Virus record (IMG/VR): IMGVR_UViG_3300017987_000433
Coordinates: 1 to 20,503 of that record
Direction: 5' to 3' (one strand)
Origin: a virus
DNA: 20,503 bases
How positions within the stretch are numbered: the first letter of the stretch is position 1; each line of letters opens with the position of its first letter. Position numbers and translations under genes: made by a program. The notes below the pieces were generated by a model. It saw only the letters and a list, made by a program, of their open reading frames with translations, did no database searches and was not told where the DNA came from. Shown here one piece after another: positions 2,982-18,598 of this stretch.

Positions 2982-3512
2982 ATGGCAAAGCAAGGTAGGC
3001 CTAAAAGTCCTCCTAAAGCGAAGGAGATGCTGAAGGAGGTTATACCTATAGATGATATATTTAATCCGGAGGAAAAGAAAATATATGAGTCTTTGGTAGA
3101 TATTTATTTAAAAGATTTTGAAAGCGATGATCTCACAGCCGGTGATATGGATGATGTAATGAGTTTGGCTATGAATCGTGTGCTTGAAATACGCTTGTTA
3201 AAGACAAGCAAAGGTAGTACAGATGCGCAGCTTGATATAGCAGGTACGATTGAAAAGATGCGCAAGCAGAACGAAAAACTTAAAGAAAGTTTATCTACCA
3301 GAAGGAAGGATAGAATAAATCCACATGAACATAAGGGTTTTTCAATTATTGATTTAGCTGTAGCTTTTGAAGAGGATAAAAAGAAAAAGTTAAAGGACAA
3401 GATAAAAACACATAAATTAGAAGAAGATATAATTCTAAAAGAATATAATAAATTCGAAGGAAATAGGTATGATTTAGATGTAGAATTAGAAGAGGGAGGT
3501 GATCCCTCTTAG
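2982..3512 (+). CDS. terS: Probable terminase small subunit
   Basis: The 176-residue protein begins MAKQGRPKS, with a Gly-Arg-Pro element of AT-hook type. It continues with helical segments (about 31-75), a long coiled-coil-like helix (about 85-108, IEKMRKQNEKLKESL) and a very charged tail. This resembles P27-type small terminases, which bind packaging sites as rings and hand DNA to the large subunit. Sequence similarity is weak to the eye. The strongest evidence is position: it abuts the large terminase, with stop TAG 3510-3512 overlapping the GTG start by one base. AAGGAGGTG (2971-2979) precedes ATG 2982. Its final codons form a hairpin over the terL ribosome binding site, which suggests coupled translation. 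Confidence 0.65.
   Translation: MAKQGRPKSPPKAKEMLKEVIPIDDIFNPEEKKIYESLVDIYLKDFESDDLTAGDMDDVMSLAMNRVLEIRLLKTSKGSTDAQLDIAGTIEKMRKQNEKLKESLSTRRKDRINPHEHKGFSIIDLAVAFEEDKKKKLKDKIKTHKLEEDIILKEYNKFEGNRYDLDVELEEGGDPS
3490..3510 (+). promoter_or_regulatory. Hairpin sequestering the terL ribosome binding site
   Basis: Bases 3490-3497 (AAGAGGGA) pair perfectly with 3503-3510 (TCCCTCTT) around a 5-base GGTGA loop. The same bases contain GGGAGGTGATCC (3494-3505), matching the classic 16S rRNA 3' end complement AGGAGGTGATCC at all but one position. The terL GTG starts at 3512. The hairpin therefore buries an exceptionally long ribosome binding site, and a ribosome finishing terS would open it. The sequence is direct observation. 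Coupling is inference. Confidence 0.65.
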
Positions 3513-5260
3513 TGTCTCACCTGGTTAAAATAAAAAATAGAAAACTCATATATAGACAAGGGACAGAATTAATAAATTTTTATAGACAAAACCCTTGTAT
3601 TGCTGCTTGGGATCTTTGTAGAGCTGATCTAGCCCCTATACAACGTGTAGTTTTTGAAGCTATGTGGTTTAAAGATTACGTAATCGGTGTTATGGGTAGG
3701 GGTTGTGGTAAAACTTATATGCAAGGATTATTAGCTGTTCTAAGTTGTTTATTATACCCAGGTTATAGAGTTGGATTAATAGCTCCCACCTTTCGTCAAT
3801 CCAAAATGATTTTTTCCGAGGTTGAAAAGTTATATAGTAAATCAGCTATAATACGACAAGCTGCTGAAAAAAGACCTATCAGACAAACAGATACATGTTA
3901 TTTAAAATTCAAAGCTGTTGGTGGGTATAATGGTTCTTATATTGAAGCATTACCTCTCGGTATAGATGGTGCTAAAATTAGAGGATCTCGTTTTTATTTA
4001 ATTTGTGTAGACGAGCTTGCCCAAGTACCAGATAAAGTTCTTGATTTAGTTGTTCGTCCATTCGCAGCTGTTTCTTTAGAGCCTATGGAAAAAGTTAGAA
4101 GATTGGAGCAGCAGAGGAAATTAATAGAAGAGGGTTTAGCAACAGAAGATGATTTTGAAGATGAAAGTGTAAACAAGATGGTGATGACTTCATCTGGTTT
4201 CTTTAAATTTAACCATATGTGGCGGCGTATGAAGGACCATTGGGAAATGATGGATAAGTTAGGTAATGATTCAAGGCATATGGTTTTTCAAATTCCTTAT
4301 TGGTTTATGCCTCCGGGATTTTTAGAACTTGATAGTATTGAAGAAGCCAAACGTACAATGTCTTCTTATGAGTTTCAAATGGAATATGAAGCTGCTATGA
4401 TTTCAGATTCTGAGGGTTTTTTCAAAGCATCTTTGTTAGAAGAATGTACTATAGATAGTGGTGTGGAGATAGAATTATCTGGAAGAAGTGATGCGCAATA
4501 TGTTGTTGGTGTAGACCCAAATCAAGGTGGTGCTGCCAGTTGTGGTGTGGTAATAATAAAATTAGGGGTTGTTAATCAAGTAGTTAATGTTTTAGAATTA
4601 AAAAATAAAACTACACAAGGTTTGACAGAGGCTATACAGAGAATATATGATTCTTATAATGTAATGAGAATTTTTATGGATAAGGGTGGTGGTGGAAAAG
4701 CTATCATGGATTTATTAGAAGAAGGTTATGGTGGCCATGAACCTCTAATAGATCGTACAGATAAAGATAAAGCGCATTTAGAGGGTCTGCATGTTTTAGA
4801 AATGGTGAATTTTAATCCTTCTTGGATCTCTGATGCTAATTTTTCAACATTAGCTTTGTTAGAGGATAAAAGGTTAAAATTCCCTGAAGCACCTACTGGA
4901 GTTCAGGATAAATTTGCTATAGTGTTTTCAAAAATAAATATGCTGAAATCTCAAATGCTCAGTATTATTGTAACACAAACACCAAGCGGTCTTTTACATT
5001 TTGATACGCCTAAGAAAGGACAGAATAAGGATTTGTATTCAGCCATGATATTAGCAGCTCATGGTGCGCGTATAATAGAAAGAGAGTTAGAGGAAGATGG
5101 TTTGCCTGTATTATATACAAGTGGTGGTATGGTCCGGCAACATGCTGCAAGCAGTAGTTGGGATCAACATGTGCCTAGTATAGGGCAATCCCAAGCGCCT
5201 GTAGTTAGGACCACTGGACGAGAATTAGGTGCTGCTGTTTTAAAGAAAAGAATTAAATAA
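3512..5260 (+). CDS. terL: Terminase large subunit (packaging ATPase/nuclease)
   Basis: This 582-residue motor protein translocates DNA into the prohead through the portal and cuts it. Walker A is VMGRGCGKT (about 60-68) and Walker B is FYLICVDE (161-168), with the catalytic Glu following the Asp. The RNase H-fold nuclease domain shows its acidic residues in VVGVDPNQGG (Asp335), RIFMDKGGGG (Asp390) and NKDLYSAMILA (Asp507). The C-terminal ~60 residues form an extra Ser/Gln-rich tail. Length is normal for the family. The GTG start overlaps the terS stop and is served by a GGGAGGTGAT site inside a hairpin. The call is secure. Headful versus cohesive-end packaging cannot be told from this sequence alone. 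Confidence 0.95.
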   Translation: MSHLVKIKNRKLIYRQGTELINFYRQNPCIAAWDLCRADLAPIQRVVFEAMWFKDYVIGVMGRGCGKTYMQGLLAVLSCLLYPGYRVGLIAPTFRQSKMIFSEVEKLYSKSAIIRQAAEKRPIRQTDTCYLKFKAVGGYNGSYIEALPLGIDGAKIRGSRFYLICVDELAQVPDKVLDLVVRPFAAVSLEPMEKVRRLEQQRKLIEEGLATEDDFEDESVNKMVMTSSGFFKFNHMWRRMKDHWEMMDKLGNDSRHMVFQIPYWFMPPGFLELDSIEEAKRTMSSYEFQMEYEAAMISDSEGFFKASLLEECTIDSGVEIELSGRSDAQYVVGVDPNQGGAASCGVVIIKLGVVNQVVNVLELKNKTTQGLTEAIQRIYDSYNVMRIFMDKGGGGKAIMDLLEEGYGGHEPLIDRTDKDKAHLEGLHVLEMVNFNPSWISDANFSTLALLEDKRLKFPEAPTGVQDKFAIVFSKINMLKSQMLSIIVTQTPSGLLHFDTPKKGQNKDLYSAMILAAHGARIIERELEEDGLPVLYTSGGMVRQHAASSSWDQHVPSIGQSQAPVVRTTGRELGAAVLKKRIK

Positions 5261-5310: not shown

Positions 5311-5604
5311 ATGAGCGACGAGATTTCCTTTTTCAAAAAAACATTTTGGGATTTATGGTTTCAGAAGATTTTTAGAAATATTGCTTCTGTAAAATATCAA
5401 TGGTTAGCTTTACTGTATGTACCTACTATTTGGGGTATGTTTCATATGAAGCCTGATGGTAAGGAACCTTGGATAGGTGCTGCGGCAGGTTTAGCATTTT
5501 TAGGGGGCGGTTTTGTAACTTTAGCTTTAGGTAGAATAATTACAAGAACAGCTCTTAAAGAAGAAGCTGGTGAAGCGGATAAGGAATTAAATACAGATAA
5601 ATAG
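5311..5604 (+). CDS. Two-TM small membrane protein, holin-like
   Basis: The 97-residue product has an amphipathic charged N-terminus, a first hydrophobic segment (about 29-45, YQWLALLYVPTIWGMF), a short polar turn (KPDGKEP), a second segment rich in Gly and Ala (about 54-75), and a charged tail. Two membrane segments with an acidic/basic tail match class II holins, which open the inner membrane at lysis. ATG 5311 follows AGGAGG at 9 bases. It is followed 9 bases later by another membrane protein of possible spanin-like build. No endolysin is visible in the window, so a head-associated or other membrane role remains possible. Confidence 0.5.
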   Translation: MSDEISFFKKTFWDLWFQKIFRNIASVKYQWLALLYVPTIWGMFHMKPDGKEPWIGAAAGLAFLGGGFVTLALGRIITRTALKEEAGEADKELNTDK

Positions 5605-5613
5605 GAATGAATT

Positions 5614-6573
5614 ATGGAGTCTAAATATAGGTGGGATATTTTTGGGATAGTTAAAAGTATTACGTTGGTGATTTGTGTTTTATTTTTATTTACTAAGTTT
5701 AATGCTTTAGTAGATATGTTTAAACCAACACAACCATCTCCACCACAAATTGTTAAGGTTGATGATAATGCTTGGAAAATAGCTTTCGAAGCAAGTAAGC
5801 AGCAAGTGGCGGATTTGAAAAAGATATTAGAAGAACAAAATAGTAAAATATTACAATTATCTAAAGAAAATAATGAGAAGATAGACGAAGTGGGTATAAT
5901 AAAAGCTAAGCTTGAACAATCTGTAAAGCTTCAACAAAAATCTTCTCATGTTTATTTGAAAGGTAAAGTAACGGATCATCATTTTATAAAGATTTATAAA
6001 AAAGCTTCGGATGGACAGGAATACCCAATAGCTTGGGCAATGTTTCATCCCAACCAACCAGATCCAAATAAATTATGGAAAGTTGGAACATATCCTGTTG
6101 AAATAGAAGCTAATATAATTGAAACTGAAGATAAAAAAGGTAAGTTTAATAGATATGTAGAATTAAATGCTAAGAATAACCAAATGAAGGAAACAAAAGG
6201 TAATTTATATCCTATTAAATTAACTGAAGTTAAATGGGCTAAAAACAAAATAAGCCATAAAAGTTTTAGTTTTTTAAATCCAAGATTAGGATTAAGTGGT
6301 GTTTTTACTAATGATTTTTTTGCGCCAACATTAGATTTAAGTATAGCTTCTTATGGAAGAACAAATGTTGATATGGATTGGCGCTTTCTAACATTTGGTG
6401 CTGGAATATCTAATACTGATGAAGAGGATGATGATTTTGTATTTTCATTCTCACCCGCCCAATGGAATTTTGGAAAAGCAGTTCCTTTAATTAATAATGC
6501 ATTTATAGGACCTAGTATTGGTTGGGCCGGCGCAGACACCTCATTTGGTGTATCCTTTTCAATTCCATTTTAA
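5614..6573 (+). CDS. Membrane-anchored coiled-coil protein with outer-membrane-like C-terminus
   Basis: The 319-residue product has four visible parts. Residues 10-27 are a hydrophobic anchor after a basic N-terminus. Residues about 50-108 form a coiled coil (ADLKKILEEQNSKILQLSKEN). Residues 110-205 are a mixed beta domain. Residues 220-319 have alternating hydrophobic strands and Gly/aromatic turns, finishing SFGVSFSIPF. A terminal Phe on an alternating strand is the classic outer-membrane beta-barrel signature. Read together, the protein could be anchored in the inner membrane, cross the periplasm and insert in the outer membrane, acting like a spanin of unusual architecture. I recognise no family. 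The start follows a weak AGGAA site. The alternative is a host-envelope modifier or a membrane-tethered virion assembly factor. Confidence 0.5.
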   Translation: MESKYRWDIFGIVKSITLVICVLFLFTKFNALVDMFKPTQPSPPQIVKVDDNAWKIAFEASKQQVADLKKILEEQNSKILQLSKENNEKIDEVGIIKAKLEQSVKLQQKSSHVYLKGKVTDHHFIKIYKKASDGQEYPIAWAMFHPNQPDPNKLWKVGTYPVEIEANIIETEDKKGKFNRYVELNAKNNQMKETKGNLYPIKLTEVKWAKNKISHKSFSFLNPRLGLSGVFTNDFFAPTLDLSIASYGRTNVDMDWRFLTFGAGISNTDEEDDDFVFSFSPAQWNFGKAVPLINNAFIGPSIGWAGADTSFGVSFSIPF

Positions 6574-6588: not shown

Positions 6589-6768
6589 ATGGCTACAAGT
6601 TATTTAGAAGATCGTTCAAAATATAGAGCTAATCAAGATGCAACTACGTGGTCCGGCGAAGATTATTATGATATAGAGAAATTGATTGGTAGACCAGATT
6701 ATATAAAAGTAGATGCAACCACTAACTCTGGTATTAATGTAGATAATGCTGGAACAATTTTAGTATAA
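6589..6768 (+). CDS. Small hypothetical protein upstream of portal, 59 aa
   Basis: An intact 59-codon frame fills the gap before the portal gene. It starts at ATG 6589 behind AAAGGAG (6575-6581) and ends at TAA 6766. The product begins MATSYLEDRSKYRANQD and is acidic, without Cys, membrane segment or signal peptide. The C-terminal half (KVDATTNSGINVDNAGTILV) looks like two or three beta strands, as in small virion or head-tail joining proteins. It lies between membrane genes and portal, so a structural role is possible. I recognise no family. Confidence 0.65.
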   Translation: MATSYLEDRSKYRANQDATTWSGEDYYDIEKLIGRPDYIKVDATTNSGINVDNAGTILV

Positions 6769-6782
6769 AAAGGAATTAAATA

Positions 6783-8603
6783 ATGGAAGATAAATTTAAA
6801 AAGATAACAGCTCAACTCCAAAAACAATTCCCGGATGTAGGGATACATAAAGTTGAGACAAATGTTAACACAGGACAGGCATCATTTTATTTACAACCCA
6901 CAACTAAAACTTTAGCATTTCTCGAAAATGGAGGGGCAGTTGTACCACGCCAATTTCGAGATAAAGCTGCTACTATAACAAGAGACGCTCTTGATAGAGG
7001 GTATCTGGATCTGGCTCAGAAAGATCCATATGAAGATTCCCCCCAGAATCTATTTAAAAGAGCAGATAAATATTATTATAAAGAACCTTTAGTTGGTACA
7101 ACTATTAATTTATTAGCTAGTTTAGCATTTAAGGGTTTTGAAAATGATATAGATGATGAAAAAATTAAACAATTTTATGATACTTGGTGTTTTGATGTAA
7201 GGATGGATGAGGTTTTGGAATGGATCTTTCTTGATTTTTTCAAGATCGGCCATGTTATAACTTACAAAGTTTTAGCCAAATACGAACCACGAGTATCATA
7301 TCTATCACCTGTTCCAGGTAAAAAATTAAATAGACCAACTAAAACAAGTACTGGAGAACAAGCTGCTAAAAAGAATATTTGGTCCAAAGGACATTTACCA
7401 GTAGCTTATACAGTTTTAAATCCACAGTTATTTGTTGTTACAGGTAATTTATTATTTGATAAAGTATCTGTTTCTTTAAGATTACCTCCAGAGTTAACAA
7501 CAATGTTGGGCAAACCTACAGCTGAGTTAACAGAGGATGAAAAGGCTTTGATTAAAGCTTTACCTGCAGATTTAAAAGCTGCTGCTGAAAAAGGCGGAGA
7601 ATATAAATTAGATTCTAGGTTGGTTGGAAGTGTTACTTACAGAAAGCAACCTTATGAGAGATATGCTAGACCAAGATCAACGCGTGTTTATGATGCATTG
7701 GATTATAAAAAAGCTTTACAAAACGCTGACCTAAGCACGTTAGATGGTATTTCTAATTATATTTTAAAAATTACAATAGGATCTGATGAGTATCCCGTTA
7801 CTACACAGTCTGAGTTAGAGGCTGTAGCACAATTATTTAATACACCCAGCAAATCATTTGATGTGGTTTGGAATCACACATTACAAGTTGAAAAGATAGT
7901 TTCTCCTGAAATAGAGGCTATTCTTGGACAAGATAAGTATGCACAAGTTAACGATGATATTACAGGGGGTTTAGCTATTTCTCGGGCCCTTATAGATGGT
8001 ATTTCTGATTTGAATACAGCTGAAGCTAGTTTAGTAACAAAAGGATTGATGGAAGAAATAAATTATGCAAGGAATCAAGTTACTAGGTGGTTATATAGAG
8101 AGTATCAACAAATTGCCGAGGCTATGAAGTTTGATAGATTTCCTAAGGTTAGGTGGGATGAAAGCGTCCTTCAAGATCTTATCCTTTATATGAATACTGT
8201 GTCTCAATTAGTTGATCGTAGAATGTTGAGTTATAGAACAGCTCATGAGGTTCTTGGTTTTGATTATCCGAACGAATTGATGAATATGAAAGAAGAATTT
8301 CCACTGGTTGAAGATGGTACGTTTGGTATTATTGGTTCACCCTGGCAACAAGCTAAAGGTATGGGGAGTATGGTACAACCCACCCAGAAAGCTCCGACAG
8401 GAACACCTTCTCAAGGCCGGCCAACAGGTCAACCAGCTAAGACTAAACAAAAAGATACAGATGTTACCCCAAGTAAAACAAAACCAAAGAAACCACAGAA
8501 AGCTAAATTAACAATTGGGGAATATGTTGAAGGTATGAGTGAAGAAGAATTTGCTAATTTTCAACATCAATTAAACATAGTAAGATTAAAAAATAAGAAA
8601 TAA
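6783..8603 (+). CDS. Portal protein
   Basis: A 606-residue protein two genes downstream of terL and directly before the protease and capsid genes has the position and size of a portal, the 12-fold ring through which DNA enters the head. The sequence supports this: an N-terminal winged region with DKYYYKEPLVGTTINLLASLAF (about 96-117), a helical clip/stem section with WIFLDFFKIGHVITYKV, and a long helical crown near 400-470 (LVTKGLMEEINYARNQVTRWL). The last ~110 residues are a Pro/Lys/Gln/Thr-rich linker (about 525-575) ending in a short charged helix. ATG 6783 follows AAAAAGGA. Context and overall pattern make the call firm, although no single catalytic motif exists for portals. Confidence 0.85.
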   Translation: MEDKFKKITAQLQKQFPDVGIHKVETNVNTGQASFYLQPTTKTLAFLENGGAVVPRQFRDKAATITRDALDRGYLDLAQKDPYEDSPQNLFKRADKYYYKEPLVGTTINLLASLAFKGFENDIDDEKIKQFYDTWCFDVRMDEVLEWIFLDFFKIGHVITYKVLAKYEPRVSYLSPVPGKKLNRPTKTSTGEQAAKKNIWSKGHLPVAYTVLNPQLFVVTGNLLFDKVSVSLRLPPELTTMLGKPTAELTEDEKALIKALPADLKAAAEKGGEYKLDSRLVGSVTYRKQPYERYARPRSTRVYDALDYKKALQNADLSTLDGISNYILKITIGSDEYPVTTQSELEAVAQLFNTPSKSFDVVWNHTLQVEKIVSPEIEAILGQDKYAQVNDDITGGLAISRALIDGISDLNTAEASLVTKGLMEEINYARNQVTRWLYREYQQIAEAMKFDRFPKVRWDESVLQDLILYMNTVSQLVDRRMLSYRTAHEVLGFDYPNELMNMKEEFPLVEDGTFGIIGSPWQQAKGMGSMVQPTQKAPTGTPSQGRPTGQPAKTKQKDTDVTPSKTKPKKPQKAKLTIGEYVEGMSEEEFANFQHQLNIVRLKNKK

Positions 8604-8712: not shown

Positions 8713-9804
8713 GTGGAAAAATTATATTTAAAAGCTGAGATTCAATTGCATGAAGAAACAGAAGCTTTGAGAGAAGAAGCGGCTTCTGTTATTGAGCTGC
8801 CTAAAGAAGGCGAAAAGCAGATTGATTTACAATATTTTTCTGCTGTTTTTGTTTCTTCTGGCGCTAATCTAAATCATGCATATTTTCTTCCGTCAGAACT
8901 GGTAAAGGCTGAAAATACCATAATTAACAAGGCCATGGATGTTGAACACAAAGAATCCGAAATAGTTGGACATATTTATGATAGAGCATTCATGGATAAA
9001 AAAGGAAATAAATTAGAAATTGAGGAATTAGCATCTATGGAAACAGCCAGCTTAGATGAACAAGATATGCACATTGTTATAGCTGGTATTGTGTACAAGA
9101 ACAGATTCCCTGATTTGGCAAAGGAAGTTGCTGAGGGTAAGTGGTCTGTAAGTATGGAAACATATTTCGGAGATTATGATATTAAGGTTGGAGATTTAAT
9201 ATTACCTCGCAAGGAGGCAGAAGCATTAGGTTTAGCAACAGAAGAAGATAATATTTTTGGTAAATTAGCTAAGGTTATAAAAAACAAAGTTGAAATAGCC
9301 GCTGGAAAATTAGATAGAGTTTTACGTGGTATAAATTTTTCTGGTTGCGGGTTTGTACAAAACCCAGCTAATCCACCATCAGTTGTATTGGAAACTGCTG
9401 CTGATAAAGGAAACAAGAATGATGTTGATGCGAAACCAATTATTCTTAATTATGATTTGTTAGAGGAAGAGGATGATAATAATGTAACCTCTAATAATAC
9501 AGAGGTAACTTCTTCTGAAGAAGCAGAACTTCAATATAATGATACAATTGGTATTTGCGTTAGTTTCAAAAAGGAAATTTATGATACCACTTTTAAAGGC
9601 ACTTTAAGTAAAGTGGTTCATACAGATTGGTGCACGTTGTATGATAGGCCGTGCACTTCTTTTTCGAGGGACACTACAGATCCTGATTGTCTAAGGAATA
9701 AGGTTCGGTATGTCGCCACTAGTTGCGTAGAGGACTATATGGAAAAGAGAGCCGGTGAAGATAGAAGAAAAGAATTGTTAGCTAGTTTGAAAAAGTTGCT
9801 TTAA
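8713..9804 (+). CDS. Prohead protease with Cys-rich C-terminal extension
   Basis: This 363-residue protein probably cleaves scaffold and capsid proteins during head maturation. The N-terminal ~225 residues match the herpesvirus-assemblin-like phage prohead protease pattern: His79 in MDVEHKESEIVGHIYD, the serine in GKWSVSMETY (Ser145 or Ser147) and the closing FSGCGFVQNPANPP (about 209-222), a hallmark of this family. After an acidic linker (about 247-275), a second domain (about 278-363) has Cys282, 307, 314, 326 and 338 and a His in VVHTDWC, suggesting metal binding or disulfides. GTG 8713 is the only in-frame start after AAGGAGGAG. An ATG two bases earlier is out of frame and stops after six codons. 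The protease call is firm. The tail is unexplained. Confidence 0.8.
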   Translation: MEKLYLKAEIQLHEETEALREEAASVIELPKEGEKQIDLQYFSAVFVSSGANLNHAYFLPSELVKAENTIINKAMDVEHKESEIVGHIYDRAFMDKKGNKLEIEELASMETASLDEQDMHIVIAGIVYKNRFPDLAKEVAEGKWSVSMETYFGDYDIKVGDLILPRKEAEALGLATEEDNIFGKLAKVIKNKVEIAAGKLDRVLRGINFSGCGFVQNPANPPSVVLETAADKGNKNDVDAKPIILNYDLLEEEDDNNVTSNNTEVTSSEEAELQYNDTIGICVSFKKEIYDTTFKGTLSKVVHTDWCTLYDRPCTSFSRDTTDPDCLRNKVRYVATSCVEDYMEKRAGEDRRKELLASLKKLL

Positions 9805-9858
9805 AAGCTGATTGCTACGAGTCAGTTAAAATAATAATCGTAAAGAGGAGGATTTGAT

Positions 9859-10293
9859 ATGCCACAATTAGGACAAGCCCAAACAGGGTTACTTAGAAGT
9901 ACTCCAAAATTAACTAGAATTAATGGTGATGATAATTTAAAAGTTATTTGGAGAAACATGGGTAATAATCATGCTTATCCATTTTTCTGGGGCGACTCTT
10001 TTACAGTCGCATCAGGTGTTACAGAAATCACATTAGCTAGTGGTGTTAAATTTCATGGTTTTGATTTAGCTACATATGGAAACGTTACAGCTACACCGTG
10101 TTGGAATGCTGGTGCTTTCTATATTACGAAAGATACCACAGCTAATACTATTAAATTCACCTGTGCTACTGCTGGAGCGAATGATGGTTCATCTAAAGTA
10201 GATGTAAAATTTGCTCTTGGTGTAGACCCAGTTATTGAAGGCATTTATTGCAGCACTTGGAGTGCAAGCAATATTAAAGCTGATTTACCATAA
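9859..10293 (+). CDS. Beta-rich probable virion protein (decoration-like), 144 aa
   Basis: ATG 9859 follows AGAGGAGG. The product is rich in Thr, Ala, Gly and Asn and shows repeated short strands (FTVASGVTEITLASGVKFHGFD), without charge clusters, membrane segments or signal peptide. This is typical of small capsid-decorating or head-fibre proteins. It sits between protease and scaffold in the head operon. The 53-base gap before it holds only the ribosome binding site. No family is recognised, so the call rests on composition and position. Confidence 0.55.
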   Translation: MPQLGQAQTGLLRSTPKLTRINGDDNLKVIWRNMGNNHAYPFFWGDSFTVASGVTEITLASGVKFHGFDLATYGNVTATPCWNAGAFYITKDTTANTIKFTCATAGANDGSSKVDVKFALGVDPVIEGIYCSTWSASNIKADLP

Positions 10294-14015: not shown

Positions 14016-15539
14016 ATGTCAAGAAGTTTTTTAGACCAATTAGTTCAGATTAGACGTTCTGGCACTTATGATGATAGTGTTTCTGGTGTAAATAATTCTA
14101 ATATAGCAGAACCTACAGTATCTGGTTCTTTGCAAGAAGATTTAAATGTCATCAGAACATTAATGAAGGATGTTAAGGGGACGTCTTATTGGTACAGTGA
14201 TTTAGGAAGTTATTTTGATCCAACTAATACGGATGCTGGAGATGCGGCTAATAAAACTTTAAGTTTAGACAACATTTCTGGTAATACGTTGGATTCAAAA
14301 ACTGTTATAATTGCTGTTACTGATAATAATAGTGGTTCTTATTATACAGTATCAGGTACTTCTCAAGGTATATTATTCTATCCCACATCTTTAATGTATG
14401 CAGATCCTGCAGATAGACGAGGATTGCCTATCTTTGAAAGTACTACTAATAGTGGTACTTACTATGATGAAGGTGGATCGGATAATGTATGTCGTATAGA
14501 CGTTATTGATGCTGATACCGAAGCAGAAATGCAAGATGGTTCTGGTTACACCATTTATGCTAAATTCCATGATGGTGCTGATCAAGGCGGATCTGGTGAA
14601 AATACGGATGTTTATGCTAAATTCTATGCGAATGGTGCGGAATGTGATTTATCAACAGTTTCACCTACGCCTAGCAGCGTTTATTTTATTTATCCATATC
14701 GTAGAAGAATGTCAGATATGGCTGAATATGAGTGGTTAAGAACTGACTTCGTCAGCTCTTGGGAAGGTGATATTGAATTAATTGAGGATATAAGTAATCT
14801 TTGGAGTTTCACTGGTGCAAGTGATAATACCACAGATCCTACCTGGACCAACACCGCTGCTAATTATTTATTAGATGGTAATCCTGATGATTTAACTGAA
14901 GCCATTAATGATATAAATGATGGTGTTGGTAATTTAACTTACACATCTACATATTTATCAAGCGGACAGACTGTTACAGCATCTTTGAATGCTTTAGGCC
15001 TTGGAATCGAGAGTAATGATAGTGATATTACTAGTATTAATAGTAGTATTTCTTCTATCAACAGTTCATTAAGTTCATTACAATCTCAGATTTCATCTAA
15101 TGATTCAGATATAGCTGCTAACGCTGCTGACATCGATGATTTAGAAGCTGCTGCTGGTACCTCAACAGGTCTAGCTGGATTAGTGTATAGTTCAACAAAC
15201 TATGTAACTAATGGTACTTCATTAGAAACAGCTATTGGCGCGTTGGATGCTGCTATCGGCGGGACATCTGGTGTTAAATATGTGGAAACTACAGCTGGTG
15301 CCATCACTGCTAATGTGGAACACGGTTTACCATATAGCATTACATACACACCTGATGCCACAGCCGGCCAAGAAGGTAATAATATGGACGTTTATCTTAG
15401 TGGTCAGTTACTAGCTGCAGATACCGGTGCTGCTGGAGCTAATGCTGATAGAGACTACGGAGAGACAACTACTTCAGGTATTACATTTAGATTTGATATA
15501 CCTGCTGGAAGAAACATAACTTATGTTGTTAGACAGTAA
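14016..15539 (+). CDS. Fibre/appendage structural protein, first copy (507 aa)
   Basis: The protein is Ser/Thr/Asn/Asp/Gly-rich. A conserved N-terminal domain (about 1-270) includes GTSYWYSDLGSYFDP, AKFHDGADQGGSG and YPYRRRMSDM. A helical spacer follows (about 325-375) with a repeated SNDSDI and a run of SINSS/SLSSLQ heptads of trimeric-coiled-coil character. The C-terminal beta domain (about 440-507) contains MDVYLSGQLLAADTG and ends in alternating strands (TYVVRQ). This build is typical of trimeric phage fibres or whiskers. Nearly its whole length is repeated in the C-terminal half of the next gene. Its ribosome binding site lies in competing RNA hairpins. Whether it is tail fibre, head fibre or neck whisker cannot be decided here. 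Confidence 0.65.
   Translation: MSRSFLDQLVQIRRSGTYDDSVSGVNNSNIAEPTVSGSLQEDLNVIRTLMKDVKGTSYWYSDLGSYFDPTNTDAGDAANKTLSLDNISGNTLDSKTVIIAVTDNNSGSYYTVSGTSQGILFYPTSLMYADPADRRGLPIFESTTNSGTYYDEGGSDNVCRIDVIDADTEAEMQDGSGYTIYAKFHDGADQGGSGENTDVYAKFYANGAECDLSTVSPTPSSVYFIYPYRRRMSDMAEYEWLRTDFVSSWEGDIELIEDISNLWSFTGASDNTTDPTWTNTAANYLLDGNPDDLTEAINDINDGVGNLTYTSTYLSSGQTVTASLNALGLGIESNDSDITSINSSISSINSSLSSLQSQISSNDSDIAANAADIDDLEAAAGTSTGLAGLVYSSTNYVTNGTSLETAIGALDAAIGGTSGVKYVETTAGAITANVEHGLPYSITYTPDATAGQEGNNMDVYLSGQLLAADTGAAGANADRDYGETTTSGITFRFDIPAGRNITYVVRQ
14025..15536 (+). repeat. Duplicated fibre unit, copy 1
   Basis: From Ser4 (SFLDQLVQI) to the final Gln, the product aligns with residues 511-1010 of the next protein with only small gaps. 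Near-identical blocks include DDSVSGVNNSN, KGTSYWYSDLG, DAGDAANK, NISGNTLDSKT, LWSFTGAS, LGLGIESNDSDIT and NADRDY. By eye well over half of the positions agree. The DNA is also similar but carries many silent changes, so the duplication is not recent. Confidence 0.9.
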
Positions 15540-15565: not shown

Positions 15566-18500
15566 ATGGCTAATTACGATATGTTAACTGTAAGTGGATC
15601 TGTGCCTAGTACTGGGTTGGTTAGATTAGCTAATTCCAGTAATGCTACTTGGACGGTCCACCATAGAGAAATACCAGTCGGATTAGCAGCTCCTTCGGAT
15701 CTTACATATACCGAATATAAATTATGGGGCTACGGTAGTTATCCTAATGAGGGCTCAGCTAGCTGGCAATCACTACCTGCTAGTGGTACTGTCAACATCA
15801 CGATAGACGATGAAGCAGGTCTTCAAGTTATTTCAGCCAGGTTTAGAGATGCAGGTGAAACTGAATCCTCAGTTGTTACTGCTAGCGGCGTAATTTATGA
15901 ATGGTCAGAACCTTCGAAGTCAGGCGGACTTTCTTGGGTTAGTTTAACCGATGAAGGCGATCAAAGTGCTATTCTAAGATCCGCTGCTAATAATATAGAT
16001 ATAACTTTTGATAAAAACAATTTAGATCTTTTAAAATTTCATAACAGAGATTTTTCAGGTTTAACTGTTGTTAGTGATAAAATAACAGTCACATCTGGTA
16101 GTCAGATTTACAAAGTTCTTGATCTTGATTATAATTCAGATGGTTATGCATCGATTAAGAAAACTTTTTCAACTGATGCTACACCATTCATTACAGTAGA
16201 TATAGGTGATGGTCATAAAACACTTACTACCTACAGTGGTGCTATAAAATCAGATGTTACTGGTGGTTATTTAGATAGAATTGATAATTATTCTTTTAGC
16301 TCACCAGATCCAGAATGGGGAACTTATTTTGATAATACATATTGGGAACCTACAACCAATCCAGCATGGCCTTATGCTAAAGGTTCTTGGGATGGAGAAA
16401 AGTGGGTTGCGGAATTAGATACTAATTTAGCTCCGGGATGGTATTATTTAGCTTTAGTACCTGTTTCAGGTACATCATGGGCCGACGATTTTAGGCCTAC
16501 TAAAATAAGAACAACTATTTCTGGCGGTGTTGCTGGTCAAATTAATTTATATGAAGTATATTCAGCTACTGATGCTGGAGGAAGCCCTACTATTGTTGAT
16601 GTAAGTGATTATACTTCTTTAGATGAAGAAACAATGAGTTGGACTGCTGGACAAGATGTAGCATTGCTTTTAATGACTTCTAATGGTAATGCATTTAGCG
16701 TGACTAATAATGAATTTTATTATACACCGAGTGATAAAGAATTAACTTTTGATGTTTATAAATTTTCACAGTATGGGTTTGCTACTATAAATGCGCTATT
16801 TTTCACTACAGACTCTGTAACCGCTGGTTATAATGGTACTTCTATAGCTTTAAAAGTTCAAGTGCTTGATACCAACGGTGAAGGGGTTGAAAATGCTCCG
16901 GTAACTTTTTCCGGAACTGGTGATGATATTGGTGATTTTAGTGCCAATCCTGTTTATACTGATGGAGATGGTATAGCTACGGCTACACTTAATTTAGATA
17001 CTTTAGGAACAGCTACTTATGATGCCTCATGTGATGGTATTCATACTTTAACCGATCAAGTGACTTATTGTTATGATTACACTGCCGGTGTAAGAAGTAT
17101 ATTGAACCAATACACTCAGATAAAAGAGTCGGAAACTTTCGATGATAGTGTATCTGGCGTAAATAATTCAAATGTAGCAGAACCTACTGTGTCAGGTTGT
17201 TTAAATGATGATTTGAATGTGGTTAGAAGTATTAAGAAACAAATAAAAGGTACATCTTATTGGTATAGCGATTTAGGTAATTATTTCGATCCTACCGATA
17301 CTGATGCTGGCGATGCGGCTAATAAAGATCTAAATTTAAGTAATATTTCTGGAAACACTTTAGATTCTAAAACCATTATATTAGCTGTTGAAGCCGATAA
17401 TTCTGGTTCAGGGTTTTCAATTTCCACGAATGATACAGGATTTGTATATAGCACTGGTTTATCTTATGCTACACCTACTAATAGATTAGGTCTACCTATT
17501 TTTGCTAGCACCACTAATAGTGGTAGTTATTATGACGAGGGTGGAGCAGATAATGTGTGCGTAATAGATTTGATAGATTCTTCATCCGGCGTGGAGTTTG
17601 AAGATGGTTCTGGTAATTTAATTTATGCCAAGTTCCATGATGGGGCTGATGCTCCCACAGGTTCCGGAGTAGGAACTGATGTGTGGGTTAAGTTCTATGC
17701 TAATGATGCTCCTTACACATGGACAGCAGATGATCCTAGCTTAATTTCTATGATTTTCCCATATAGACGAAGATTGTCTGATATGGAAGAATATAATTGG
17801 TCAAGAACAGATTTTGTTAATGGTTTTGAGGGGGATGCTAATTATATAGATGATGTAGAAAATTTATGGAGTTTTACTGGCGCATCTAACGGCGTTTTAG
17901 ATCCTACCTGGACTAATACATCAGGTTATTATCCATTAGATGGTGATCCTGATGATTTGATGGAAGCTATTAATGATATAAACGATATTGTTGGAAATTT
18001 AACTTATACATCCACCTATATAGTTAGTGGTGAAACTGTCACAGCGTCATTGAATAAACTAGGTCTCGGTATAGAGTCTAATGATAGTGATATTACAACT
18101 ATTAATGGTCAGATTTCTTCTATTAATAGTTCATTAAGCTCATTACAAACTCAGATTTGGTCTAATGATAGTGATATTGCTACCAATGCTAGTGGTATTG
18201 ATAATTTAGAGGCTGCTATAGGTTCAGATACAGGTCTTGCTGGATTAATTTATAGCTCTAATAACGCTGTAACTGATAATACTTCTATAGAAACTGCTAT
18301 TGGTGCATTGGATGCAGCAGTTACTGGTTCTTCTGGCCAGAAATATATTGAAGAATTAGTTTCAGATATTACTACTGGTGTGGAACATGCTACGCCGATT
18401 TCATATACACCTAATTCCACAGCTGGTCAGGAAGGTATTAATATGGATGTGTGGTTAAATGGTCAATTATTAGCTGCTAGTACGGGGGCTAATGGTGTTA

Positions 18501-18598
18501 ACGCTGATAGAGACTATTCAGAAACTACTACATCTGGAATAACTTTTACGTTTGATATATCAAGCGGAGAAACCTTGATGTATGTTATAAGGCAATAA
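15566..18598 (+). CDS. Large fibre/appendage protein with Big_1-like domain and duplicated C-terminal half (1010 aa)
   Basis: This probable adhesin-type virion protein has two halves. Residues 1-510 are specific to it: Ig/Fn3-like strands near 45-112 (ARFRDAGETESS), beta-rich middle segments with many Trp and Tyr (about 230-310), and a domain at about 412-501 with SIALKVQVLDTNGEGVENAPVTF and DGDGIATATLNL, the hallmark of the bacterial Ig-like group 1 (Big_1) fold seen in invasins. Residues 511-1010 repeat the whole preceding protein, including its coiled-coil spacer and C-terminal strand domain. ATG 15566 follows AAAGGA, 26 bases after the previous stop. The pair may form one appendage, with the shared half mediating trimerisation or docking and the unique half displayed. 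Receptor binding is inference. Confidence 0.7.
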   Translation: MANYDMLTVSGSVPSTGLVRLANSSNATWTVHHREIPVGLAAPSDLTYTEYKLWGYGSYPNEGSASWQSLPASGTVNITIDDEAGLQVISARFRDAGETESSVVTASGVIYEWSEPSKSGGLSWVSLTDEGDQSAILRSAANNIDITFDKNNLDLLKFHNRDFSGLTVVSDKITVTSGSQIYKVLDLDYNSDGYASIKKTFSTDATPFITVDIGDGHKTLTTYSGAIKSDVTGGYLDRIDNYSFSSPDPEWGTYFDNTYWEPTTNPAWPYAKGSWDGEKWVAELDTNLAPGWYYLALVPVSGTSWADDFRPTKIRTTISGGVAGQINLYEVYSATDAGGSPTIVDVSDYTSLDEETMSWTAGQDVALLLMTSNGNAFSVTNNEFYYTPSDKELTFDVYKFSQYGFATINALFFTTDSVTAGYNGTSIALKVQVLDTNGEGVENAPVTFSGTGDDIGDFSANPVYTDGDGIATATLNLDTLGTATYDASCDGIHTLTDQVTYCYDYTAGVRSILNQYTQIKESETFDDSVSGVNNSNVAEPTVSGCLNDDLNVVRSIKKQIKGTSYWYSDLGNYFDPTDTDAGDAANKDLNLSNISGNTLDSKTIILAVEADNSGSGFSISTNDTGFVYSTGLSYATPTNRLGLPIFASTTNSGSYYDEGGADNVCVIDLIDSSSGVEFEDGSGNLIYAKFHDGADAPTGSGVGTDVWVKFYANDAPYTWTADDPSLISMIFPYRRRLSDMEEYNWSRTDFVNGFEGDANYIDDVENLWSFTGASNGVLDPTWTNTSGYYPLDGDPDDLMEAINDINDIVGNLTYTSTYIVSGETVTASLNKLGLGIESNDSDITTINGQISSINSSLSSLQTQIWSNDSDIATNASGIDNLEAAIGSDTGLAGLIYSSNNAVTDNTSIETAIGALDAAVTGSSGQKYIEELVSDITTGVEHATPISYTPNSTAGQEGINMDVWLNGQLLAASTGANGVNADRDYSETTTSGITFTFDISSGETLMYVIRQ
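17096..18595 (+). repeat. Duplicated fibre unit, copy 2
   Basis: This is the C-terminal 500 residues of the 1010-aa protein, beginning SILNQYTQI directly after the Big_1-like domain. It matches the entire preceding 507-aa protein collinearly. Divergence is concentrated around residues 605-635 and 685-725 of the large protein, whereas the spacer and start regions are conserved. Confidence 0.9.

Follow-up and report, generated by a model that had tools for sequence, protein, structure and literature searches.

Does a phage gene encode a single chain that is held in the inner membrane by a helix and in the outer membrane by a barrel, and that serves as a spanin during lysis? The question arises from an open reading frame of an uncultured tailed phage, virus record IMGVR_UViG_3300017987_000433, whose whole 20.5-kb stretch (20,503 nucleotides) is called the window below. 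In u-spanins of the T1 gp11 type, an N-terminal lipobox provides the outer-membrane anchor and a C-terminal helix the inner-membrane one (PMC6139136). Kongari et al. (2018) could recognize no spanin in about 13% of the phage genomes of their survey, and they considered that, in principle, an outer-membrane protein might take the part of an o-spanin (PMC6139136). We found no report of a barrel-anchored spanin in the open-access full-text literature.

The gene considered here (5614-6573, plus strand) starts with ATG and encodes 319 amino acids, as described in an earlier reading made from the sequence only. Judged by sequence comparison, it is a real, conserved gene and not a chance open reading frame, since relatives at 20-70% identity to the window protein occur in about 30 contigs. 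IMG/VR searches gave overlapping sets of 11, 18, and 30 relatives and a scan of genome contigs gave two more. Some 31 of the relatives from uncultured viral contigs are distinct, and the family alignment comprises 31 distinct full-length members. Some members lie on contigs of 435 kb and 266 kb. No relatives were retrieved in searches of Pfam, NCBIfam, PDB sequences, and annotated phages and plasmids. The N-terminal half matches Rz-like spanin PHROGs (phrog_7584, 6.6e-4; phrog_4297, 0.013), but these matches are weak and confined to the helix and the coil, and membership in these PHROGs was not accepted. Scanning the surroundings of the gene for promoters and terminators gave nothing above chance level.

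Architecture of the predicted protein

The AF2 model of the full-length protein (17 sequences, mean pLDDT 82.5, pTM 0.56) contains a helix at residues 9-35, a beta domain at residues ~123-200, and six strands between residues 224 and 318. The N-terminal helix (residues ~9-35; 5638-5718, plus strand), also located by a hydropathy and charge scan, is the sole hydrophobic helix of the protein and would be its inner-membrane anchor. By hydropathy, all 31 members have one such N-terminal helix and no second one. A lipobox is absent from the first 45 residues in 31 of 31 members. Identity with a T1-type u-spanin is thus ruled out, there being neither a lipobox nor a C-terminal transmembrane helix (the C-terminus is predicted to be beta). 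A plain outer-membrane protein with a cleaved signal peptide was also considered: a crude rule finds a loose SPase I-like site in nine of the 31 members and none in the window protein.

The helix is followed by a heptad-repeat, coiled-coil-like segment (residues ~64-105; 5803-5928, plus strand), defined by a hydrophobic periodicity of 3.5 residues. The periodicity is modest in each sequence taken singly (p 0.005-0.15 in most members, 0.085 in the window protein) and is missing in a few distant members, but its position in the chain is otherwise constant from member to member. AF2 breaks residues ~64-105 into short pieces with no continuous long helix, so that the assignment as a coiled coil comes from the amino acid sequence and not from the model. 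A type II N-terminal helix followed by a coiled-coil periplasmic domain, a feature of i-spanins, is therefore present to the extent that this modest periodicity indicates. Next comes the middle beta domain, predicted to be periplasmic (residues ~123-200; 5980-6213, plus strand). The N-terminal helix is common to the whole family, and a heptad region of ~45 residues and the middle and C-terminal beta domains are found in most members.

The C-terminal domain (residues ~224-319; 6283-6570, plus strand) ends in TSFGVSFSIPF. When modeled alone with 31 sequences (pLDDT 89.5, pTM 0.79), it forms six meander strands in a barrel-like arrangement, the main strands having 9, 13, 14, 13, 9, and 11 residues. 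Thus, most of the architecture proposed in the sequence-only reading is recovered. The N-terminal anchor, the beta domain, and a C-terminal part of ~100 residues with alternating strands and a final Phe all reappear in the model, and the fold predicted for the C-terminus is a meander barrel similar to those of the outer membrane and not a beta-sandwich. The coiled coil stands as a heptad-like segment, but its length is about 42-45 residues and not the ~60 originally given.

In structure comparisons, the best match of the C-terminal domain is 9xzt (BBn6, 90 residues; Z 9.0, rmsd 2.8 over 83 residues), which we take from its name and size to be a designed six-stranded barrel and which may be a soluble design. 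The matches that follow have Z below 8, a range in which, according to the guide of the comparison tool, similarity may reflect a common arrangement only. They start with chain F of 5x5y (Z 6.0), of a soluble periplasmic or lipocalin-like beta-domain type, and continue with many matches at Z 4-5, which include PagL, OmpA, OmpW, OprF, NspA, Ail, and designed transmembrane barrels as well as lipocalin-like enzymes (Z ~4.5) and soluble barrels. A protein of an uncultured phage, A0A6J5RKD4, is a close structural relative, with a TM-score of 0.79 to the C-terminal domain.

Two features of the sequences help to tell a membrane barrel from a soluble one. A terminal Phe with hydrophobic residues at positions -3, -5, -7, and -9 is the C-terminal signature of outer-membrane proteins. 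The chain ends in Phe in 29 of 31 relatives vs. 4 of 245 other open reading frames of the same loci, and the full pattern is found in 24 of 31 vs. 0 of 245, although the 31 members share kinship and do not represent 31 independent events. On the apolar face of the strands of the barrel-like domain, Lys/Arg make up 0% of the residues and Asp/Glu 1%, and 73% are hydrophobic; on the opposite face, 50% are Gly/Ser/Ala/Thr and 16% are charged. When the middle domain is split likewise, 18% and 30% of the residues on its two faces are charged; since faces were picked by hydrophobicity in both domains, the evidence lies in the comparison between domains and not in the absolute values. The C-terminal signature and the face composition favor a membrane barrel over a soluble one.

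Genomic context and possible relatives

In the window, the gene is preceded by the terminase large subunit gene (3512-5260, plus strand; phrog_2, 1.7e-26) and by a 97-amino acid holin-like membrane gene (5311-5604, plus strand). It is followed by a gene for a ~60-amino acid protein conserved in 19 loci (6589-6768, plus strand) and by the portal gene (6783-8603, plus strand; phrog_16240, 4.8e-6). A major head protein was also found in the window by PHROG search. The same order, terminase, holin-like gene, 319-amino acid-type gene, ~60-amino acid gene, and portal, is usual in most members. This is evidence against a spanin: in most relatives, and in the window too, the neighborhood of the gene is that of terminase and portal and not that of an endolysin. 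At the corresponding place in a 119-kb relative (L012), the terminase-adjacent holin-like gene is missing, and a second, partial terminase-like open reading frame (L012:2436-3173) precedes the full-length terminase large subunit gene (3198-4934).

A different arrangement is seen at two loci. In L057, a 147-amino acid M15-like endolysin candidate, the spanin candidate, and a holin gene follow one another with a 4-base overlap at each junction. In L050, a 147-amino acid gene overlaps the spanin-candidate gene by 4 bases; it matches the endolysin family phrog_894 (1.8e-9) and also Peptidase_M15_3, at 8e-4, short of Pfam's own cut-off. The L057 gene of 147 amino acids has no profile match and is called an endolysin because it resembles that of L050. 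The lysis-cassette neighbors are an endolysin-like gene in both loci, a holin gene in L057, and, in the window, the holin-like gene only. The 97-amino acid window gene has no direct PHROG match; its holin-like character is supported indirectly, via its alignment (2e-13) to the L057 homologue, which matches the holin family phrog_1356 (3.9e-5). A role in lysis, which had been proposed from this neighbor only, thus gains support from the endolysin-coupled relatives. A 234-amino acid open reading frame with, by eye, the look of a TIR-like nucleotide-binding protein immediately precedes the endolysin gene in the lysis region of L050 (L050:1240-1944).

It also speaks against a spanin that the endolysin of the 87-kb and 119-kb relatives, which belongs to the same family (2.8e-32 in the 87-kb relative), is encoded ~9-11 kb from the spanin-candidate gene. 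No credible lipoprotein gene was found in the 87-kb contig, which may be incomplete, so that one sees in it no spanin of the Rz1 type or of the T1 type. Similarly, no o-spanin lipoprotein partner was found within the 20.5-kb window. Directly upstream of the endolysin gene, both of these relatives encode a ~331-amino acid protein that is actin/ParM-like by eye (L096:1955-2953, minus strand; L097:490-1485, plus strand). In the very distant members L030, L059, L060, and L062, the neighbors are unrelated to lysis, a further point against a spanin.

Proteins of flavobacterial phages may be further relatives. Foldseek matches the 319-amino acid protein to gp061 of Flavobacterium phage tant8-1 (E 2.3e-3, probability 1.00), encoded directly after an annotated peptidoglycan hydrolase gene. 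Homologues of gp061 follow annotated or likely endolysin genes in Flavobacterium phage 1/32 (F132_47, after a DD-transpeptidase), Tenacibaculum phage Gundel_1 (Gundel1_87, after an L-Ala-D-Glu peptidase), and Polaribacter phage Leef_1 (Leef1_12, after an N-acetylmuramidase); some others have no endolysin annotated alongside. The four named proteins share the N-terminal helix, the coil, and the middle beta region with the 319-amino acid family. Their C-terminus is much shorter; some proteins of the flavophage set finish with a short hydrophobic stretch, and those of Leef, Freya, and Molly with about three strands and a terminal Phe. With the full family set, hhalign aligns residues 14-203 to the flavophage family (probability 69%, E 4.4e-5), covering the helix, the coil, and the middle domain and not the barrel. 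A smaller set, A2, gave a probability of 13%, and for this reason the homology stays tentative. In the parts consulted of the paper on the North Sea phages, no spanin is mentioned for Leef, Danklef, or Gundel (PMC8776804).

These tentative relatives, from Flavobacteriia, which are Gram-negative, are the only ones with known hosts. Homologues in phages of Gram-positive hosts, named in the sequence-only reading as evidence that would refute a bridge, did not turn up in the searches. Matches in WOR-3 and Aenigmatarchaeota metagenome-assembled genomes were not accepted as hosts: misbinning is likely, since there was no further case among ~200 relatives of the WOR-3 genome.

Proposed function and alternatives

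The inner-membrane helix, the coil, the barrel of outer-membrane type, and the coupling to endolysin and holin genes, taken in combination, lead us to read the 319-amino acid protein as a single-chain spanin, or a spanin-like protein, with a helix in the inner membrane and a barrel in the outer membrane, a reading to which we give a probability of roughly 0.6. Prediction and comparison support the order of the domains, the fold of the barrel, the lack of a lipobox, and, for relatives, a coupling of the gene to those of endolysin and holin; context and architecture make it probable that the protein belongs among the spanins. We infer from them insertion into the outer membrane, bridging of both membranes, membrane fusion or outer-membrane disruption, and a function in lysis.

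In the mechanism that we propose, the N-terminal helix would hold the protein in the inner membrane with the remainder in the periplasm, and the coiled coil and the beta domain would cross the periplasm and the peptidoglycan. The barrel would sit in the outer membrane, where the BAM machinery of the host probably inserts it on reading the C-terminal Phe signature. As long as the peptidoglycan is intact, the protein would be trapped in the meshwork. Once the endolysin has cut the wall, the periplasmic part may collapse or oligomerize and thereby draw inner and outer membrane towards each other, in the way suggested for Rz/Rz1 and T1 gp11. The number of strands is a difficulty. All natural monomeric outer-membrane barrels known to us have at least eight, vs. 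six per chain predicted here, and for this reason an oligomeric barrel is considered. The bridge from inner to outer membrane suggested in the sequence-only reading is thus strengthened by the barrel-like C-terminus and by the endolysin-coupled relatives, and weakened by the strand count.

The same strand count would suit a small designed barrel such as BBn6, and some soluble beta domains match the C-terminal domain about as well as outer-membrane barrels do (5x5y chain F and the lipocalin-like proteins). One may imagine a periplasmic protein that is anchored in the inner membrane, has a soluble barrel at its C-terminus, and works at the inner membrane or on the peptidoglycan but never enters the outer membrane, for example as an i-spanin-like or holin-regulating subunit; by sequence, the N-terminal half matches nothing but Rz-like i-spanins. 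We consider this rather unlikely: an almost charge-free apolar face opposed to a Gly/Ser-rich one is the opposite of a soluble barrel surface, the C-terminal signature is that of outer-membrane proteins, and no lipoprotein partner was found in the 87-kb relative.

That most relatives have the gene between those of terminase and portal leaves room for two other explanations. An outer-membrane or envelope protein with a different role, for instance in superinfection exclusion or in remodeling of the envelope, could lie near structural genes by history only. A superinfection exclusion family, phrog_4980, is weakly matched by one member (0.011), and distant members have non-lysis neighbors. However, the mostly uncleaved-looking N-terminal helix and the coiled coil would be superfluous in a plain outer-membrane protein, and the coupling to endolysin and holin in L050 and L057 together with the endolysin adjacency in the tentative flavophage relatives points to lysis, which makes this explanation improbable. 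Even less credible, and in our view very improbable, is a protein of the virion structure, such as one of the tail or the neck. The conserved place beside terminase and portal would fit, but every member has an N-terminal membrane helix, profile searches gave no significant match to any virion family, and in L050 and L057 the gene is found next to an endolysin gene and not with terminase and portal.

The single-chain spanin that we favor would resemble T1 gp11 u-spanins in that one protein is proposed to connect both membranes, with a beta-rich periplasmic part, no conserved periplasmic cysteines, and lysis genes nearby in some relatives. It would differ from them by the reversed order of its anchors and by the nature of the outer-membrane one. 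Its N-terminal half is close to lambda Rz in having a type II membrane helix and a coiled coil, as well as weak Rz-like PHROG matches, but Rz needs a separate outer-membrane lipoprotein, Rz1, which the fused barrel would replace here. With the OmpA transmembrane domain, OmpX/Ail, OmpW, PagL, and NspA, it would share an antiparallel meander barrel, an outer-membrane-type C-terminus, and an apolar outer face. In contrast to these proteins, which have eight strands and match at structural Z of only 4-5, the family has six strands, no recognizable sequence relation to them, and an inner-membrane anchor in place of their cleaved signal peptide.

The family is therefore a concrete candidate for the missing spanin route through an outer-membrane protein. 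Its signature, an N-terminal helix, a coil, a C-terminal barrel ending in Phe, and no lipobox, can be searched for and is invisible to lipobox-based annotation. If the barrel inserts, the protein would be one of the rare single chains that are integral to both membranes, and it would offer a test of how BAM deals with a barrel tethered to the inner membrane. A bolder version, possible rather than probable in our judgment, is that of a third spanin class widespread in uncultured phages, some with genomes of several hundred kilobases, in which the chain is integral to both membranes through a natural six-stranded outer-membrane barrel or an oligomeric one with six strands per chain.

Other open reading frames of the loci

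Near the spanin-candidate gene, extra open reading frames occur at places that vary from relative to relative (L008:3676-4860, L003:5979-6821, L004:3864-4451, L010:474-1241, L032:2111-2944). Several are of mobile type by eye, TnpB-like in L008 and endonuclease-like in L004 and L010. Shortly downstream of the candidate gene in L011, a large tail-fibre-like protein (L011:6165-8945) is followed by a reverse-transcriptase-like open reading frame (9157-10185), a pair that by eye is reminiscent of a diversity-generating retroelement. In the window itself, the 1010-amino acid open reading frame at 15566-18598 carries a second copy of most of its 507-amino acid neighbor (14016-15539), shared from DDSVSGVNNSN onwards, an apparent tail-fibre duplication.
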